From contig NZ_ANFZ01000009.1 of NCBI RefSeq assembly GCF_000331245.1, positions 372,001 through 436,000 on the forward strand: a DNA stretch of 64,000 bases. The letters are read 5' to 3'. The position numbers and the translations under genes were made by a program. The DNA comes from Blastomonas sp. AAP53 (GTDB lineage Bacteria; Pseudomonadota; Alphaproteobacteria; Sphingomonadales; Sphingomonadaceae). The notes below the pieces were generated by a model. That model was given only the letters and a program-made list of their open reading frames with translations, was not told the DNA's origin and did not search any database. Within the stretch, counting starts at the first letter, position 1. Each line of letters opens with the position of its first letter. Shown in pieces: positions 50,796-57,493 of the stretch.

Positions 50796-51458
50796 CTACG
50801 TCTGTCCGGTGCGCAAGGCTGCTCGGATCGCGTCGCTGCGTGAGTTGACTTCGAGCTTGCGGTAGATGGATTTGACGTGCGTGCCGATGGTGTGGGGCGA
50901 GATCGCCAGCGTGCGGGCGGCCTCCTTGTAGCTTTGTCCCTTGGCAAACGCCTGCAACAATTCGGTCTCCCGGGCGGACAGGCGGTTTTCGGGTTTGGCT
51001 GGGGCGGTTGCGGCGGCCAATGGCTCCGCGCGCAGAAAGCTCAACAGGTAGATCGCGGCAGACGGGCTGACCGGCGCTCCGCCTTCCAGCGTGGCGGCGA
51101 TGCCGTCCAGGATGACTTCCGGGCTGCTGTCCTTGAGCAGATAGCCATCTGCTCCGGCGACGATCGCCTTCACCACCGTATCACGGTCTCCGAAGGTGCT
51201 GATGATCAGCGCCTTGGCCTGGCTGCGCGCCTTGATTTGCGGGATCAAAGTGTAGCCAAGCCCATCGGGCAAGCCGATGTCGAGCAGGAAAAGGTCCGGT
51301 GACTGGTCCAGCAGCGCATCGGCGCTGGCAAGATCGGGCGCCATGCCGATGATCTCGAAGTCTGGCTGCATGGCGATGATGCCCTGGAAATACTGGCGCA
51401 CGATCGGATCGTCCTCGACGACGGCGATGCGGACAGCAGGGGATGACGACTCGCTCAT
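50796..51458 (-). CDS. NarL/LuxR-family response regulator
   Basis: 220 residues. Receiver domain with acidic pair EDDP near residue 16, phospho-acceptor Asp in LFLLDIGLPDG (about residue 56), and KALIISTFGD...KAIVAGADGYLLKD. LuxR HTH at the C-terminus: LSARETELLQAFAKGQSYKE, then AARTLAISPHTIGTHVKSIYRKLEV. Downstream partner of the histidine kinase gene 54 bases upstream on the same strand. Confidence 0.93.
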   Translation of the reverse strand: MSESSSPAVRIAVVEDDPIVRQYFQGIIAMQPDFEIIGMAPDLASADALLDQSPDLFLLDIGLPDGLGYTLIPQIKARSQAKALIISTFGDRDTVVKAIVAGADGYLLKDSSPEVILDGIAATLEGGAPVSPSAAIYLLSFLRAEPLAAATAPAKPENRLSARETELLQAFAKGQSYKEAARTLAISPHTIGTHVKSIYRKLEVNSRSDAIRAALRTGQT

Positions 51459-51512: not shown

Positions 51513-53417
51513 TCACAGCGCCACATCCGCCCGTTCCAGCGGCAGTGCCAGCACGATCCTGGTGCCCCGGCCATCCTGACCGGGCAGGATGCTGGCAACA
51601 CCGTTCACCGATTGTGCGCGCGATTTCATGTTGGCCAGGCCGCGACCGACACTCTCGTCGGTGCCCAGACCTTTGCCGTCATCGGCCACTTCAAGCACCA
51701 GCCCGTCGTCACTACGTGCCGCCGTGACCGCGATCCGGCTGCACTGGGCGTGCTTGAGCGCGTTCGTCACAGCCTCTTGCAACACACGGAAAATCTGGAG
51801 CACATCGCGTGGGCCAAACACGCTGATCGCGCCGATGCTCTCGTCTTCCTTCCAGACGAAGTCGATCCCCACCGCCTGAACCCGGGGCTGAACCCGCGCC
51901 TTGAAGGTCGCCAGCGCCGATCCCAAGGATTCCCCGACAGAGTCCATGGAATCGACCATCAACCGCATCTCGTCGATCACCGATTGCAGCCCTTCTGCCA
52001 CCGTCGCTGGTTCGGCGATGCCCACCCTTGCCGAAAGCATGATCGACATCAGCTGGCTGCCCAGGCCATCGTGGAGATCGCGCATGATGCGGCGGCGTTC
52101 CTCGTCGAGCGCCTGTTCGCGGACCAGCGCCCGTTCGCGCTGCGCAGCCTCGGCCAACTCGGCCTCGCGCAACGCCACCTTCGCCTGCAACATGTCGTTG
52201 AGCGCGCCCTGCGACTGGAACAGGCGGAAGTTGCGCGCAAGGAAAGCCGCCATCATGGCCAGGATCAGGAAGGCCGACGAATAGCGGACATTGCCCGCCG
52301 GCAGGTGCTGCTCGGGAAACCAGGCCGAACTCGCATCAAGAAATAGTGCCGCCGCCATCACCGTCAGCAGGCTGCTCTCGAGCAGCCGGTCTTCCTGCGT
52401 GGTAACAAAGTGCCACAGCAGACGGGCAGCCACGGCAATCGCCGAGCCCATCAGGTGCCAGATCCAGATCAGCGTGGGCACATCAAAGCCCTCAGGCATC
52501 GGGACCGTATAGATATACCAGCCGATCACCGCGATCACGGCGGCATAGACCGCCATGGCGGCGGGCTGGAGCCATGGCACCGGCCTGCCGGTCCAGCTAT
52601 CGACAAAACACAGCATTGTTGCGGGAATCAGCCCGGAGATTGCGAAGAAGGCTAGCATTCGGCCCCAGCCATCAACCGGGGGATCGAGCCACAGGAAATA
52701 GCCGAACAGGGCGACGAACGAACCGCACAGCAGGCTGAGCCAGGCGGCAAACCGCCAGTCGTCCGAGCGAAACACCATGATCGTTGCAAGCAGGCCGAGC
52801 AGGCCCAACAGGGTTCCGCTGACCAATGGGAAACCGGAGGCAAGGAACAAGCTGCGCGCGCTATAGGCTTCAAGCGCTCGGTAATCGGCGATCTTGGGTG
52901 CAAGGATGTCGGTATAGGGAAAACCATCACGCAAGGTGATGTAGGTGAGGGTGTTGTCTCCGGGTCGCAGCAGACCGGAAGGTATGCGCGTAAGCGTGCG
53001 GATCTGCCCATCGAAACTGCCCGCTCCCGGTTCCATGCCGCCGCGTTCGACAATGGGTGTCCCGTTGACGGCGAGAATGTAGTTGTCGACTTCAAGATAG
53101 GAGATGATGCCAAGGCCATTTGCGGGCACGCTATCGACCGCAAAGGACATGCGAACCGCGAACAGGGCGGTGTCGCAGCAATATGTCCATGGCAAGGTCA
53201 CGGGCTGGTAGCTGGCGGTCGCGGCTTCGGCGAGAGTGGGTTGCCTGATCCGGGCGATCTCGACATCGCTGATCTGTGCCATCGCCGGGGCATCGCCTGG
53301 ATCGGCACGAAACACCAACTGGTCAATCACCACCCAGTACAGGGCCTGCGCCATGCCAATCGCCAGCGTCAGCATGGCCAGCTGCCGCCAGTTCATCCGC
53401 CTCAAAACCAGTGCCAC
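51513..53417 (-). CDS. Membrane sensor histidine kinase, HisKA_3 type
   Basis: 634 residues. N-terminal membrane helix, then an extracytoplasmic jelly-roll-like domain of about 150 residues (YCCDTALFAVRMSFAVDSV... YITLRDGFPYTDILAP), about seven further helices (190-400), a coiled coil, phospho-acceptor in EERRRIMRDLHDGLGSQL, and an ATPase domain with NALKHAQCSRI and VADDGKGLG. This layout is that of 7TM-DISM-like sensors. GTG 53417 with a G6 ribosome-binding tract five bases upstream is preferred; ATG 53396 is an alternative. Divergent from the exported-protein gene cluster. Confidence 0.9.
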   Translation of the reverse strand: MALVLRRMNWRQLAMLTLAIGMAQALYWVVIDQLVFRADPGDAPAMAQISDVEIARIRQPTLAEAATASYQPVTLPWTYCCDTALFAVRMSFAVDSVPANGLGIISYLEVDNYILAVNGTPIVERGGMEPGAGSFDGQIRTLTRIPSGLLRPGDNTLTYITLRDGFPYTDILAPKIADYRALEAYSARSLFLASGFPLVSGTLLGLLGLLATIMVFRSDDWRFAAWLSLLCGSFVALFGYFLWLDPPVDGWGRMLAFFAISGLIPATMLCFVDSWTGRPVPWLQPAAMAVYAAVIAVIGWYIYTVPMPEGFDVPTLIWIWHLMGSAIAVAARLLWHFVTTQEDRLLESSLLTVMAAALFLDASSAWFPEQHLPAGNVRYSSAFLILAMMAAFLARNFRLFQSQGALNDMLQAKVALREAELAEAAQRERALVREQALDEERRRIMRDLHDGLGSQLMSIMLSARVGIAEPATVAEGLQSVIDEMRLMVDSMDSVGESLGSALATFKARVQPRVQAVGIDFVWKEDESIGAISVFGPRDVLQIFRVLQEAVTNALKHAQCSRIAVTAARSDDGLVLEVADDGKGLGTDESVGRGLANMKSRAQSVNGVASILPGQDGRGTRIVLALPLERADVAL

Positions 53418-53656
53418 GTTATCCCCCCGAATTACGCTGGCGTGATGCAAGAAATGCATGCCCTTGGGAAGGAACAAAATTTCTGCCGTGCATCAATGAC
53501 CATCGCGGGGTGTGCCTGTCAGGCACTGCCCCTTCAGGGTGAACCGATCAGGGCGTCGATATCCCATGTTATGGGAGCCATAAGTCATGGGGTATCGTGC
53601 CGCCCAGCCTGCCTCTAGCTCTGCTGCCACAGCATTGATTGCCCAGAGGACAAGCC

Positions 53657-53965
53657 ATGAGAAAAGCCTTCATCGCAGCAGCCCTTTCACTCGCCAACCT
53701 GGCTCTGCTCGGCGGTATCATCGTCGCCAGTGCGAACCTGCCGGCCCATGCGCAGGGACAGAATCGCGAAGGTGTCAAGAAAACGAGCAAGGCTGTTGCC
53801 TGCCCCAGCGGCTGGAGCAGCACCAAGAACAGTGAAACCGACGTCTCGATGTGCTTCCCGCTGGGGTCATCCTCGCCAAAGCTGTACGCCAAGAGCGAAA
53901 AGGAAACCTGTGCCGAGGGCTATCATGAAGTGTCGCGTCTGTGGTGCTCTACCAAGAAGCCCTGA
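53657..53965 (+). CDS. Exported four-cysteine protein (single CPxGW module)
   Basis: 102 residues. Signal peptide (ALSLANLALLGGIIVASANLPAHAQ), then one module with four Cys: CPSGW, 12 residues, CFP, 15 residues, CAEGY, then WC near the end. The same module occurs twice in the next gene. Probably periplasmic or secreted with two disulfides. Start MRKAF at 53657 follows AGAGGAC. No known family recognised. Confidence 0.65.
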   Translation: MRKAFIAAALSLANLALLGGIIVASANLPAHAQGQNREGVKKTSKAVACPSGWSSTKNSETDVSMCFPLGSSSPKLYAKSEKETCAEGYHEVSRLWCSTKKP

Positions 53966-54296
53966 GGCTCCGTTCCGGATGAGCTGAAGACACACAAGGA
54001 TGTTGACCGCACCGGTTGAATGCGACCCGGACCAGTGCGGCCGACCGGCAGCGCGGCCACCCCGCCGCGCTGCCAAAATCACACCTCGCTGGCCACTGCG
54101 TTACGACGCGGGCTGTGGTCGCGGCGGTCGATCCAGGTCCGCGGGGTCGTTGCGACCCGGCCCCGTGGGACACTTGCGGGGGCGCTGCCGCGACGCGGCG
54201 CTCCTGCGTTTTTATCCAGTTACCAAGCAGGCAACCAGCGCGATTGCATCAGCATGGGAGCCATCTGTTACCACGTTCACATCAGGGGAATATTCG
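53966..54296. other. 331-base non-coding stretch with a perfect hairpin
   Basis: No convincing gene. It contains a perfect 11-bp stem GGCAGCGCGGC (54047-54057) / GCCGCGCTGCC (54064-54074) with a 6-base loop, a further GC-rich GGCGCTGCC-type element near 54181, and an AGGGGA ribosome binding site just before the next start. The hairpin has no T run, so it is not a clear terminator. The short open frames here lack a start signal and show no family resemblance. Confidence 0.5.
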
Positions 54297-55136
54297 ATGC
54301 GTTCACTTTCATCCAAGACCATGCTGGCTGCTGCCGGGCTTATCCTGTGCGCCGCCGGTTCGCTGGCAACTGCCCCATCGGCTGGGGCGCAGGGACGCAC
54401 AACGGGGCGTCTGGAATTGCCAAGGGAAAGGGGCCTATGCCCTTATGGATGGAATCGTGAGACTGACACTTTTTGTGTGCCATCTATAGTCGTCAAACCA
54501 ATGCCAGCGGTTTATGTCCGAGAGAACAAGAGTACTGCGTGCAATCAGGGCTATTTTGTCGATACAATCAATGATCTGGTGTGCACCTCATATGACAGGA
54601 TGACCGTGCGCTTTGCCGACGTATCCGGCGGCATCGCGAGGGCCGGCATCCTCAACCGCTGCCCAACCGGCTGGCGCGCATCGACCAATAACAAGCAGTG
54701 CTTCACGGAAATCAAAAACGCGCCCATTGCGCGCTTGAAGAACGGCAAGCCGTGTGCGCCGGGTGAGCTGGACGATTGGGGCATCTGGTGCACATCGAAT
54801 TACGAGCACCTATCCTATGCTGAAGTTGATCTCGCTGCGACCAGGGACTTCAACGACATCTACGCGAACGCCATGAACGATGGGCTGGATTATAACTCGA
54901 TCCCATCAGGCCTGTCTCCCGATGCCAAGGCCTTCTTCAAGGGCGCAGACAAGTCTTCGGGCGCATCCTCCGCTGCGCCTGCTTCGGCAAGCGAACCTGC
55001 CACCACAGCAGCCGATTGCATCTCCGGATCGGACGTTGGTGCAGCTGTCGGCGGCGTGCTCGGCGGCCGCACCGGGGCGGCCCTGGGCGGCGCGCTCGGC
55101 GGGCTTGGCAAGAAGAAGAAAAAAGGCGGTTGCTGA
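54297..55136 (+). CDS. Exported protein with two four-cysteine CPxGW modules and glycine zipper
   Basis: 279 residues. Signal peptide to about residue 32 (SLATAPSAGAQG). Module 1: CPYGW...FCVP...ACNQGY...LVCTS (about 48-97). Module 2: CPTGW...QCFTE...PCAPGE...IWCTS (about 121-165). Then a linker of about 80 residues, a Ser/Ala stretch, a glycine-zipper segment (GAAVGGVLGGRTGAALGGAL) that may insert in or associate with a membrane, and a KKKKKGGC tail. ATG 54297 is preceded by AGGGGA. Bases 54481-54600 are about 45% G+C by hand count, well below the neighbours. Confidence 0.65.
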   Translation: MRSLSSKTMLAAAGLILCAAGSLATAPSAGAQGRTTGRLELPRERGLCPYGWNRETDTFCVPSIVVKPMPAVYVRENKSTACNQGYFVDTINDLVCTSYDRMTVRFADVSGGIARAGILNRCPTGWRASTNNKQCFTEIKNAPIARLKNGKPCAPGELDDWGIWCTSNYEHLSYAEVDLAATRDFNDIYANAMNDGLDYNSIPSGLSPDAKAFFKGADKSSGASSAAPASASEPATTAADCISGSDVGAAVGGVLGGRTGAALGGALGGLGKKKKKGGC

Positions 55137-55145
55137 ACCAACGGC

Positions 55146-55199
55146 GGCGCTGCCGGCGTCCGCATCCCCCCAGGGAAATGGGACGATCAAGGCAGCGCC
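55146..55199. repeat. GGCGCTGCC inverted repeat between exported-protein genes
   Basis: GGCGCTGCC (55146-55154) and its exact complement GGCAGCGCC (55191-55199) are 36 bases apart, immediately after the four-cysteine gene. The same core recurs in the gap at 53966-54296. Confidence 0.4.
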
Positions 55200-55240
55200 T
55201 CTGTTACAGCATCAAGCCAAGGTAACCGAAGGAATTCAGA

Positions 55241-56002
55241 GTGAAGCGCCGATTTTCGATGGCTGCAGTGGCAATGCTGACGGCGTTGGTCGCCGTCCCC
55301 GCTGCGGCACAAAATCCGCAATCCGCCAAGGTGGTCCAATCATTCCCGGCGAAGGACGACGTGCTGAAAGAACAGCCGCTCACCGCAGTGCGGTTGGAGT
55401 TCGATAAGCCGGTCGAACTGGTCCTCTTAAGCATCTATGACCCGTCGGGCGAGGAGATCAGCGTCTATCCCCCGGACAACGATTTCTCCCAAAGCACGGC
55501 GCCTGCCAAGGTTTTCGAGCTGCCGCTACCCGCTGCGCTGACCGAAGTGGGCAGATACAAATTGTCATATCTTGTGTCCGGAAAATCGGTCAAATCGCTG
55601 AACGGCTACATCTATTTCGAATTGCAGGGAAAATATCCCCCGCCCAAGTTTTATGTGCAGATGCCTCAAAATGGTAGCTATCTGTCGGAACCGCTCACCG
55701 AGATTGTGATGAACCTGGACCAGGTCATTACGCTGCAAAGCCTTGATCTGGTGCGGATGGTGGAGGTCGATGACGGTGTCTCCATTGAAACCGTCATGGA
55801 AACCATCGCAACGATTGTTGGTGCCGATACGCCGGTCACAGGCGAGCTGACCGGGCAGAAGTTCAAATTTCCCGTCGACCCCAGCCTGACGCCTCCGGGC
55901 AAGTATGGCATCAAATACAGCTTTACCGTGTCGCATCCCGACGGCAGCGTATCGGAGACGACAAGCACCGCCAAATTCACGGTCAGTGGTCCCGGCGAAT
56001 GA
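55241..56002 (+). CDS. Exported protein with two CopC-like Ig-fold domains
   Basis: 253 residues. Signal peptide ending VPAAAQ. The first domain (SFPAKDDVLKEQPLTAVRLEFDKPVELVLLSIYDPSG... GRYKLSYLVSG) matches the CopC/YobA pattern, and the second (MPQNGSYLSEPLTEIVMNLDQVITLQSLDLV... PGKYGIKYSFTVSHPDGS) repeats it. The N-terminal copper-ligand His of true CopC is not present, so copper binding is doubtful. Followed by a single-domain paralogue. Confidence 0.75.
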   Translation: MKRRFSMAAVAMLTALVAVPAAAQNPQSAKVVQSFPAKDDVLKEQPLTAVRLEFDKPVELVLLSIYDPSGEEISVYPPDNDFSQSTAPAKVFELPLPAALTEVGRYKLSYLVSGKSVKSLNGYIYFELQGKYPPPKFYVQMPQNGSYLSEPLTEIVMNLDQVITLQSLDLVRMVEVDDGVSIETVMETIATIVGADTPVTGELTGQKFKFPVDPSLTPPGKYGIKYSFTVSHPDGSVSETTSTAKFTVSGPGE

Positions 56003-56146
56003 CATGTAAATGGCAACGTGTCGGCAGTAATCGCCTGCCCGTCGCCCCCCTGTCGTTCCCATGAAACTGATCGATCAGCTTATGCCAGCGGCGGCCAGGC
56101 CGACGCTAGCGCTGTTCAGACACCAACCCGACTGGAGACAGAACTC

Positions 56147-56587
56147 ATGAGACTTGCCAAATCCTTGCTGGCGATCGCGCCCCTGTTTTGCGCAGCACCC
56201 GCCTTTAGCCTGCCTGCGAAGACAGATCTGACCTATTCCTCCCCGAAAGCCGACAGTATCGAGCGGGAGGAAGTGCAATTTGTGCAAATCGGATTTGAAG
56301 GCACCGTGGATCTGGTGTCTGTGACAATCGTCAATCCCGATACGACCCAGACTGAAGTCTACAATGCAGAGACGGCCTTCTTTCCGAAGAAAGGCGAGAT
56401 GTTTGCGTTCACCTTACCCAAATCTTTGACCGTGCCCGGGCAATACCAGATCAGCTACGCGGTCGCGGTTGCAGGCACAGGTAGCACCGCCGATCCGAAG
56501 TCTGGCTCGTTCAGCTTCACCCTCGACCTGCCCGTACCGCAATCTGCAGTCGGATCGGACGAGGCCAAGCCCGCCGACCCCGGCTGA
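56147..56587 (+). CDS. Exported single-domain CopC-like protein
   Basis: 146 residues. Signal peptide (LLAIAPLFCAAPAFS), then one CopC-like beta domain: SSPKADSIEREEVQFVQIGFEGTVDLVSVTIV... PGQYQISYAVAVAG... SGSFSFTLDLP. No His or Met cluster for copper. Paralogue of the preceding gene. ATG 56147 preceded by TGGAGACAG. Confidence 0.7.
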   Translation: MRLAKSLLAIAPLFCAAPAFSLPAKTDLTYSSPKADSIEREEVQFVQIGFEGTVDLVSVTIVNPDTTQTEVYNAETAFFPKKGEMFAFTLPKSLTVPGQYQISYAVAVAGTGSTADPKSGSFSFTLDLPVPQSAVGSDEAKPADPG

Positions 56588-56611
56588 CATGGCGCTTAGC
56601 CGGCGCAGGCG

Positions 56612-56628
56612 CCTGTAGTGGATACAGG
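56612..56628 (+). terminator. Small hairpin after CopC-like gene
   Basis: CCTGTA / TACAGG with loop GTGGA, 25 bases after the stop. Short stem and no T run, so only tentative. Confidence 0.25.
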
Positions 56629-56703
56629 GCGTCAGTGTGATGCGAGTGATGGAATGGCGAGAACAAGCGGGTCGTCCGTTTTCAAGTAGTTGGAGGAATT
56701 TGC

Positions 56704-57102
56704 ATGCTCAAGACATCGTCGCTGGTATTGATGGCAAGCCTTGTTGCCGCCCCCGTGTCGGCGCAACCGCGATATTCGGGTGGCAACGAGCCTGTTACCC
56801 TGAGCGCGACGGGCACTGACCCTTGCAGCTATGGTGTCATCGCGGATCAGCCACCAGAAAGCGCTGTGGGCGTATACCCGGGTTACAGCACAGATCTGGA
56901 GATTGTTGATTATCTGGCAGCCGGAAACCCCGTCTGGGTGTGCGAACACAGCATTGACGGATCGATGGTCGGCATTGTTTACAGCATGTTCCCCGACATT
57001 GATTGCGGGGTCACCACGCCGGTAGAGACAGAGACCGATTACCTCGGAGAGTGCGATTCTGGCTGGGTCGAAGCTGTTGAAGTCAAGCTGCTGGCTGGCT
57101 GA
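56704..57102 (+). CDS. Exported SH3-like domain protein
   Basis: 132 residues. Signal peptide (LVLMASLVAAPVSAQ), then a segment resembling bacterial SH3-type repeats: YPGYSTDLEIVDYLAAGNPVWVCEH, DGSMVGIVYS, IDCGV, and GECDSGWVEAVEVKLLAG. Four to five Cys likely form disulfides. ATG 56704 is preceded by TTGGAGGAATTTGC, a good ribosome binding site. Confidence 0.65.
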   Translation: MLKTSSLVLMASLVAAPVSAQPRYSGGNEPVTLSATGTDPCSYGVIADQPPESAVGVYPGYSTDLEIVDYLAAGNPVWVCEHSIDGSMVGIVYSMFPDIDCGVTTPVETETDYLGECDSGWVEAVEVKLLAG

Positions 57103-57196
57103 TACCCGGCATGCTGCCCAGCGAAAACCCAGCCCGAGCAGTCCGTTAGAAATGCAATGCCAATCGCCACCGCAGATCCGCTCGAGGTTCTGCAGG

Positions 57197-57286
57197 TGGC
57201 GGAAGAGGTGGGATTCGAACCCACGGAGAGCTTGCACCCTCGCCGGTTTTCAAGACCGGTTCCTTAAACCACTCGGACACTCTTCC
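57197..57286 (-). tRNA. tRNA-Ser(TGA)
   Basis: 90 bases on the minus strand with encoded CCA. Acceptor GGAAGAG pairs with CTCTTCC, long variable arm typical of tRNA-Ser, anticodon stem CCGGT/ACCGG with TGA in the loop TCTTGAAAA, T-arm GTGGG-TTCGAAT-CCCAC. Its 3' end faces the exported-protein gene cluster. Confidence 0.96.
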
Positions 57287-57493
57287 ACTGACCAGCGCGG
57301 GGCAGGGCGTGCAGCCTCGCGCTGTGCGGCGCGTTTGTTAGCGGAGGCGGTAAAATCTGCAAAGCGAAACTTGTAAGGCACCGCGCAACGTGGTTCAGCG
57401 CCGGTCAAGCGTGGCCATGGCGGGATGGGTGACCGATGTTCGCTCTTTCCCCTTCGTCGCATTGTGTGGCACAACCGGTGCCGGGAGTATCGC

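Follow-up and report, generated by a model that had tools for sequence, protein, structure and literature searches.

A putative two-cysteine hairpin repeat in adjacent, apparently exported proteins of Blastomonas sp. AAP53 and its conserved genetic setting

Two adjacent genes of Blastomonas sp. AAP53, here called A and B, encode apparently exported proteins that share a real and conserved cysteine module. The elementary unit of this module is a two-Cys beta-hairpin (CPxG[WY]...C, the hairpin fold being a prediction), and a module consists of two such units. The genes lie in a window of 64,000 nucleotides, that is, the whole stretch of DNA that was analysed, to which all positions refer. They belong to a conserved gene neighbourhood characterized by divergent two-component genes and CopC-like partners, and the interval that holds them also contains a conserved RNA-like element. 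Judged from the sequences, it is quite possible, though short of an even chance, that a two-component system controls the exported proteins of the set, that these assemble into an envelope or surface complex stapled by disulfides, and that the element tunes their expression.

Cysteine hairpins of proteins A and B

Gene A (53657..53965, + strand) encodes a 102-aa protein with one four-Cys module (C49-C97; 53801..53947, +), composed of hairpin 1 (C49..C66) and hairpin 2 (C85..C97). Gene B (54297..55136, +) encodes a 279-aa protein with two modules, a predicted helix, a Ser/Ala linker, a glycine zipper and a KKKKKGGC end; its module 1 (C48-C96) occupies 54438..54584 (+) and its module 2 (C122-C165) 54660..54791 (+). 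The coordinates and reading frames that a first-pass annotation had given for both genes are correct, and all three modules conform to the four-Cys CPxGW pattern it had described, including the Cys spacings, the CxxG and the W or V before the last Cys. The modules start with CPSGW in A and with CPYGW and CPTGW in modules 1 and 2 of B. Their Cys are C49, C66, C85 and C97 in A (16/18/11 residues between Cys), C48, C60, C82 and C96 in B module 1 (11/21/13), and C122, C135, C153 and C165 in B module 2 (12/17/11). In the same order, the third Cys stands in CAEG, CNQG and CAPG and is preceded by the reported [KR]xxK stretch (KSEK, RENK and KNGK), while the residue before the last Cys is W, V and W. 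Both N-termini look like the signal peptides that had been proposed: a hydrophobic run is followed by AQG, which is invariant in the aligned proteins (9/9 A-type, 12/12 B-type), and this suggests export.

Whole-protein similarity identifies relatives in Blastomonas natatoria, two Porphyrobacter strains, Erythrobacter colymbi, Sphingomonas ursincola and several metagenome-assembled genomes. Because of these relatives and of dN/dS values of 0.07-0.35 in six comparisons of A or B with relatives, which indicate purifying selection, A and B can be considered real genes. All four module Cys are retained in the nine A-type relatives found in this way (9/9); in the B-type relatives, C48, C60, C122, C135, C153 and C165 are kept in 12/12, and C82 and C96 in at least 90%. 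A broader module alignment, A1, has 31 rows selected by the four-Cys pattern and excludes half-modules; its invariant Cys are therefore no independent test. Profile and genome searches, which had been suggested as a check, link the modules of A and B to no known Pfam domain over cut-off, and they reveal relatives and a three-hairpin family. In the window's own genome, the A1 profile matches only the three modules of A and B at E ≤ 10. The distribution is narrow: at least one module occurs in 7 of the 9 genomes of the window's genus, and among 296 genomes of the order, with the best ≤22 candidates per genome scored, at least five have matches, three being of the genus and two having three-hairpin relatives. 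Protein B has no match at E ≤ 0.01 in a plasmid collection. One metagenome-assembled genome has a second B-type gene with its end out of frame (L026:3553-4467); this frameshifted copy was used as read in the alignment and scans and was excluded from the alignment used for folding.

The first-pass annotation was right in recognizing a shared module, but its four-Cys domain is not an indivisible unit, as the two-Cys hairpin is used two or three times. A profile of first halves scores second halves with a set mean of 3.2 bits, against a maximum of 0.5 in 100 Cys-fixed shuffled sets; the reverse comparison is weaker (0.6 bits, against a maximum of 0.1), and only 16/31 and 5/31 single halves, respectively, exceed the 95th percentile of the shuffles. 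Furthermore, in three B-type proteins (L004, the second of L015, and L032) module 1 has kept just its C1 and C2, with other sequence instead of the remainder. C3 and C4 have thus been lost together, half a module being a Cys pair, and 8 Cys are left. The Cys count is even in 29/29 mature proteins, namely 13 A-type proteins with 4 and 16 B-type proteins with 8, 10 or 12; this count leaves aside the frameshifted L026 copy and, in L015, the first of the B-type proteins.

Structure prediction, also recommended at the outset, is in line with this. AlphaFold2 gives two hairpins per module at modest confidence, with strands 53-58/63-68 and 90-93/96-98 forming hairpins at the Cys pairs of A, and strands 52-54/59-62 and 157-160/164-167, among others, in B. 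The pLDDT lies at 65-74 for the module of A and mostly at 75-90 for those of B (about 80-90 in module 2), falling below 50 over most of the tail of B; the pTM is 0.40 for both models, whose alignments have only 9 (A) and 12 (B) rows. Given the Cys parity and the predicted hairpins at the Cys pairs, pairing of C1 with C2 and of C3 with C4 within a module is likely, which agrees with the two disulfides per module that had been postulated. Fold searches against the PDB with both models give no significant match to solved folds: Foldseek reaches a best E of 3.4 (B) and 0.83 (A), and VIA, used with the B model, a best Z of 2.1. The models are of modest confidence, and the lack of a match does not speak for a new fold. 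A zinc ribbon was considered and rejected, since the modules have no CxxC pairs, are apparently exported and have even Cys counts.

Beyond module 2, protein B continues with the predicted helix (174-194), the Ser/Ala-rich linker and a tail (55017..55133, +) in which C241 and the terminal C279 flank a GxxxG zipper and five Lys. The zipper, the Lys run and the Cys at the very end, all noticed earlier, are thus present, and they are conserved. Among the sequences compared, every protein end that fits the tail pattern belongs to a B-type protein, except that of one 99-residue fragment in L026, beside the frameshifted copy. A C241-C279 disulfide, which is probable, would close the zipper. Some weak whole-protein matches align only to this end, in proteins of different make-up. 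The Pfam family Gly-zipper_Omp (PF13488) is matched at E ≤ 1 by 6 of 12 B-type members (best E 0.0069), and the window's own B has no match to it at E ≤ 10.

The tail also recalls two-component glycine-zipper bacteriocins, which insert in competitor membranes, and it could be imagined that A and B are secreted together as a small antibacterial pair, B inserting into the membranes of competitors by means of its zipper and its Lys tail. The glycine zipper, the cationic end and the pairing of apparently exported genes would fit. However, the signal peptides are ordinary-looking, no exporter or immunity-like gene was recognised among the ORFs read and the ten proteins scanned, and A occurs alone, without B, in several clusters, so that this role seems very unlikely. 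We prefer to regard the tail as part of an envelope or surface complex.

Gene neighbourhood

In the window, A and B are flanked by a divergent sensor histidine kinase gene (51513..53477, − strand; HisKA_3, HATPase_c) and a LuxR/NarL-type response regulator gene (50796..51458, −; Response_reg, GerE). On the other side follow a CopC-domain protein, apparently exported (55241..56002, +), in which a single His and no Cys follow residue 20, a second CopC-domain protein (56018..56587, +; likely start 56147), which, numbered from that start, has neither His nor Cys after residue 20, and a 132-aa apparently exported protein (56704..57102, +) that has no Pfam match at E ≤ 0.1 and has relatives in L024, L025 and L026.

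This arrangement was compared over 17 distinct clusters, all located via module genes (the window, L024-L032 and L082-L088); L024 comes from Blastomonas natatoria DSM 3183, a type-strain relative. A match to the histidine kinase is present on the opposite strand in 15/17 clusters and one to the response regulator in 13/17. Of the four clusters that miss the regulator, those of L026, L028 and L032 lie where a contig or locus ends, and that of L084 has neither kinase nor regulator. At E ≤ 1e-40, 6 of the 9 genus genomes have a close kinase, and these are exactly the six with an A-type gene; more distant kinases, which share 33-36% identity along part of their sequence, adjoin the clusters of L082, L083, L087 and L088. 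CopC-like genes accompany 13 of the 14 clusters with a B-type gene, the exception being L087, and none of the three without one. These three have A without B, and four lack A (L025, L083, L084, L087). The neighbourhood is therefore conserved, and control of the gene set by the two-component system can be inferred from it.

The CopC-like genes bring to mind copper or metal handling, in which these proteins and the Cys proteins would bind or buffer extracytoplasmic copper and the two-component system would be a metal sensor. Besides the adjacency of CopC-like and B genes, the window and L027 both have CopC domains that exceed the cut-off of Pfam. CopC binds copper via its mature N-terminus. However, when Cys and His after residue 20 were counted in 12 CopC-like sequences, each had 0-3 His and none had a Cys, and no His stands at the mature N-terminus; this speaks against copper binding of the classical kind. 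Moreover, the even Cys counts of A and B point to disulfides rather than thiolate ligands, and no CopA-, CopB- or CopD-type gene was noticed alongside. A role in copper handling is accordingly quite unlikely.

Other genes vary among the clusters. A DUF4424 gene is found in nine of the 17 (L027, L028, L030, L032 and L082-L086) and, alongside it, an LprI-like gene in six (L027, L028, L030, L032, L082, L083). Their position upstream of the module genes in several clusters, together with the adjoining two-component system and the exported look of the products, would suit a function in envelope defence, in which the set, including LprI-like lysozyme-inhibitor proteins, would shield the wall or the outer membrane of the cell from lytic enzymes or from stress. 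Against this stand the limited occurrence of both genes, neither of which is in the window's cluster, and the fact that, of two genes scanned for the LprI family, one scores under the cut-off of Pfam. Envelope defence therefore remains an unlikely, though not far-fetched, explanation, and an envelope or surface complex is the one we favour.

The RNA-like element between A and B

The 331-base spacer between A and B holds two copies of an RNA-like element. Copy 1 (54002..54078, +) has a covarying stem, P1, around the loop CGACCCG, then a GC hairpin, P2, with no T run behind it; in copy 2 (54134..54217, +), the second hairpin (54175-54208) is followed by TTTTT. This architecture is general: P1 surrounds a fixed loop (CGACCCG in 16/16 elements) and precedes a GC-rich P2, often with a T run. 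An eight-row model gives 16 strong matches in 14 of the 17 clusters, eight of these matches being its own training rows, and does not find the element in clusters L031, L084 and L087. The element mostly lies after an A-type, a B-type or a second LprI-like gene and mostly behind stop codons; in L025, which lacks A, it precedes B.

At least eight pairs span P1 in 16/16 elements. With regard to stability, nine of the 16 elements are equalled by no more than 7 of 200 shuffles and the other seven by 10 to 130 of 200, among them the window's copies (11 and 12), one L024 copy (60) and the L026 element (130). Among the nine best-aligned elements (eight distinct) of the 16 known, which are mutually related, 7 of 25 pairs have changed on both sides, compared with a mean of 2.4 in shuffled alignments, none of 500 shuffles reaching as high, and with at most 3 for slid partners; the relatedness of the elements favours this covariation figure, and so does the derivation of the structure from the same sequences, which gives it an advantage over the slid controls.

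The element is closely tied to the gene set. In the nine genus genomes, searched with model R1 by scoring the best 150 candidates per genome, 11/11 matches at E ≤ 1.9e-5 are inside module clusters, seven of them outside the model, and four weaker matches are outside module clusters. A second model, R2, scored on the best 12 candidates per genome in 397 genomes of the family, gives at least 10 matches in 6 genomes, nine being its own training rows in module clusters. The tenth (L114:8169-8244, E 1.5e-7) is in the window's own genome, on contig C14, intergenic between unrelated genes and with no cluster gene nearby at E ≤ 0.01. A dispersed element was considered and rejected, as this is the one copy that R2 finds outside module clusters in the 397 genomes. 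In Rfam, only a tRNA passes its gathering score in 53400-57400, and the five matches to 53960-54310 at E ≤ 10 are all far under theirs.

The element may act as an attenuator, a terminator or the source of a small RNA. Since some copies, including the first of the window, have no T run after P2, termination is not general for the element.

A possible envelope system and its likeness to known systems

The following mechanism could be imagined. A and B would be exported by Sec and built from a small repeated beta-hairpin, each hairpin being closed by one disulfide from a Cys before the first strand to a Cys in the second. The divergently encoded two-component system would control the gene set, and the CopC-like proteins, presumably of Ig fold and encoded on the same strand, would be working partners of B, which may be held at the membrane or in an oligomer by its glycine zipper, its Lys5 run and its terminal Cys (probably paired with C241). 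Together they could make up a disulfide-stapled envelope or surface complex with the hairpins as binding or assembly faces, while the two-hairpin RNA elements would probably terminate transcription in part or otherwise set the expression of A relative to B and CopC. A more far-reaching version, in which the two-component system drives exported hairpin-repeat, CopC-like and helper proteins of an undescribed envelope system and a dedicated structured RNA element, lying between or behind the genes and including a terminator-like hairpin, sets their relative amounts, with both repeat and element new to the catalogues searched, is possible but rather doubtful. The repeat itself is an addition to the disulfide-hairpin repeats of exported bacterial proteins, so far absent from the catalogues searched, for which a culturable freshwater bacterium offers a testable genetic setting and a structured RNA-like element that is easily tested.

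The first-pass annotation had recognised no described domain. Indeed, the window's A and B give nothing over threshold in Pfam, NCBIfam or the PDB sequences, and a Pfam scan of A-type and B-type relatives, with E-values only, has the above Gly-zipper_Omp match as its best. The module is hence undescribed as far as families over cut-off are concerned, but it is not isolated, given its neighbourhood, the RNA-like element within the same interval and a weak, partial resemblance to CPW_WPC (PF09717). In Pfam and NCBIfam alike, B reaches no other family than this at E ≤ 10 (E 0.0099 and 0.017).

The resemblance could be taken to mean that A and B are bacterial members of the apicomplexan CPW-WPC family, shared by gene transfer, the more so because E ≤ 1 is reached by 4 of the 12 B-type members and E 0.001 by one three-hairpin relative. 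The scores of B and of the three-hairpin relative are below curated cut-offs, however, that of B being 17.2 bits against 23, and the best stretches of B cover only positions 8-24 and 8-26 of the 59 in the profile, that is, the first hairpin. A has no match, nor has any of nine A-type proteins at E ≤ 10. The CPW-WPC domain is defined, in the accessible parts of the published accounts, by six conserved Cys and a WxC/WPC end, with 4-6 Cys in single domains, and the hosts described there are eukaryotes only (PMC3637178, PMC11285972). Membership of A and B thus fails, both on score and on the six-Cys/WPC definition, and this reading is highly improbable. When PF09717 was searched against 289 genomes of the class, no match was over the cut-off. 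There were two sub-threshold matches: that of L037 looks like chance, within a long oxidoreductase-like ORF, and was rejected, and that of L036, a 76-aa ORF aligned to positions 12-57 with 21.0 bits against the 23-bit cut-off, is either chance or a real bacterial relative.

Leaving membership aside, the hairpin repeat may, by analogy, work like a CPW-WPC-type surface repeat. As far as the source could be consulted, CPW-WPC proteins are secreted, and two members are on the surface of the Plasmodium ookinete without a membrane anchor (PMC3637178). Like the CPW-WPC domain (PF09717 / TIGR01492), the modules of A and B are tandem Cys domains of apparently secreted proteins with a CPxxW start; unlike it, they have four Cys and no WPC end, the last Cys standing in WC, VC, FC or YC. 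The literature searched yielded no report of this bacterial repeat.

A further set of relatives consists of unnamed, apparently secreted proteins with three CPxGF..SGxYC hairpins (L040, L041, L051 and L066-L074), from Sphingomonadaceae and one other alphaproteobacterium. Each of the two weak matches in the order is an ORF of 104 residues that contains three CPSG[FWY]..SG.YC units. A search with one such protein matches in 9 of 298 genomes of the family and 3 of 349 of the phylum, two of the latter matches being portions of large proteins of other kinds; the one three-hairpin protein scanned gives nothing over threshold in Pfam, NCBIfam or the PDB sequences. To judge from the sequences, this family is related to the module beyond Cys spacing: the module profile scores 9/9 tested members, which are mutually related, above all 200 of their own Cys-fixed shuffles, and profile-profile comparison with hhalign gives a probability of 90.7% (E 1.2e-6). 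L040 and L041 are an exception to even parity, with seven Cys, the odd one near the signal peptide; in this count, L073 is miscut. Around the three-hairpin genes (12 loci, about 3 kb), no partners of the A/B clusters were found but one weak regulator match. Similar CPxGY...C repeats are also carried by L052 and L053, which we take to be large TraN-like and RHS-like proteins, and here both relation and convergence are possible. The three-hairpin proteins share with A and B the hairpin unit and the linker strand, but have three units with a C-to-C step of 11 in each and no glycine zipper that could be seen.

The remaining components show a similar mixture of likeness and difference. The neighbouring CopC-like proteins have the domain of CopC (PF04234) copper-resistance proteins, over cut-off, but those counted have no His at the mature N-terminus and no cop operon was recognised. 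B resembles Gly-zipper_Omp envelope proteins in its GxxxG-rich tail and differs from them in that no lipobox is seen and the zipper lies between two Cys and is followed by Lys5. Finally, the RNA-like element is reminiscent of intrinsic terminators and attenuators, with a second hairpin that often has a T run and is mostly located after stop codons; in contrast to these, this hairpin is preceded by a conserved stem-loop whose stem covaries and whose loop is fixed as CGACCCG, and the element is tied to this particular gene set.
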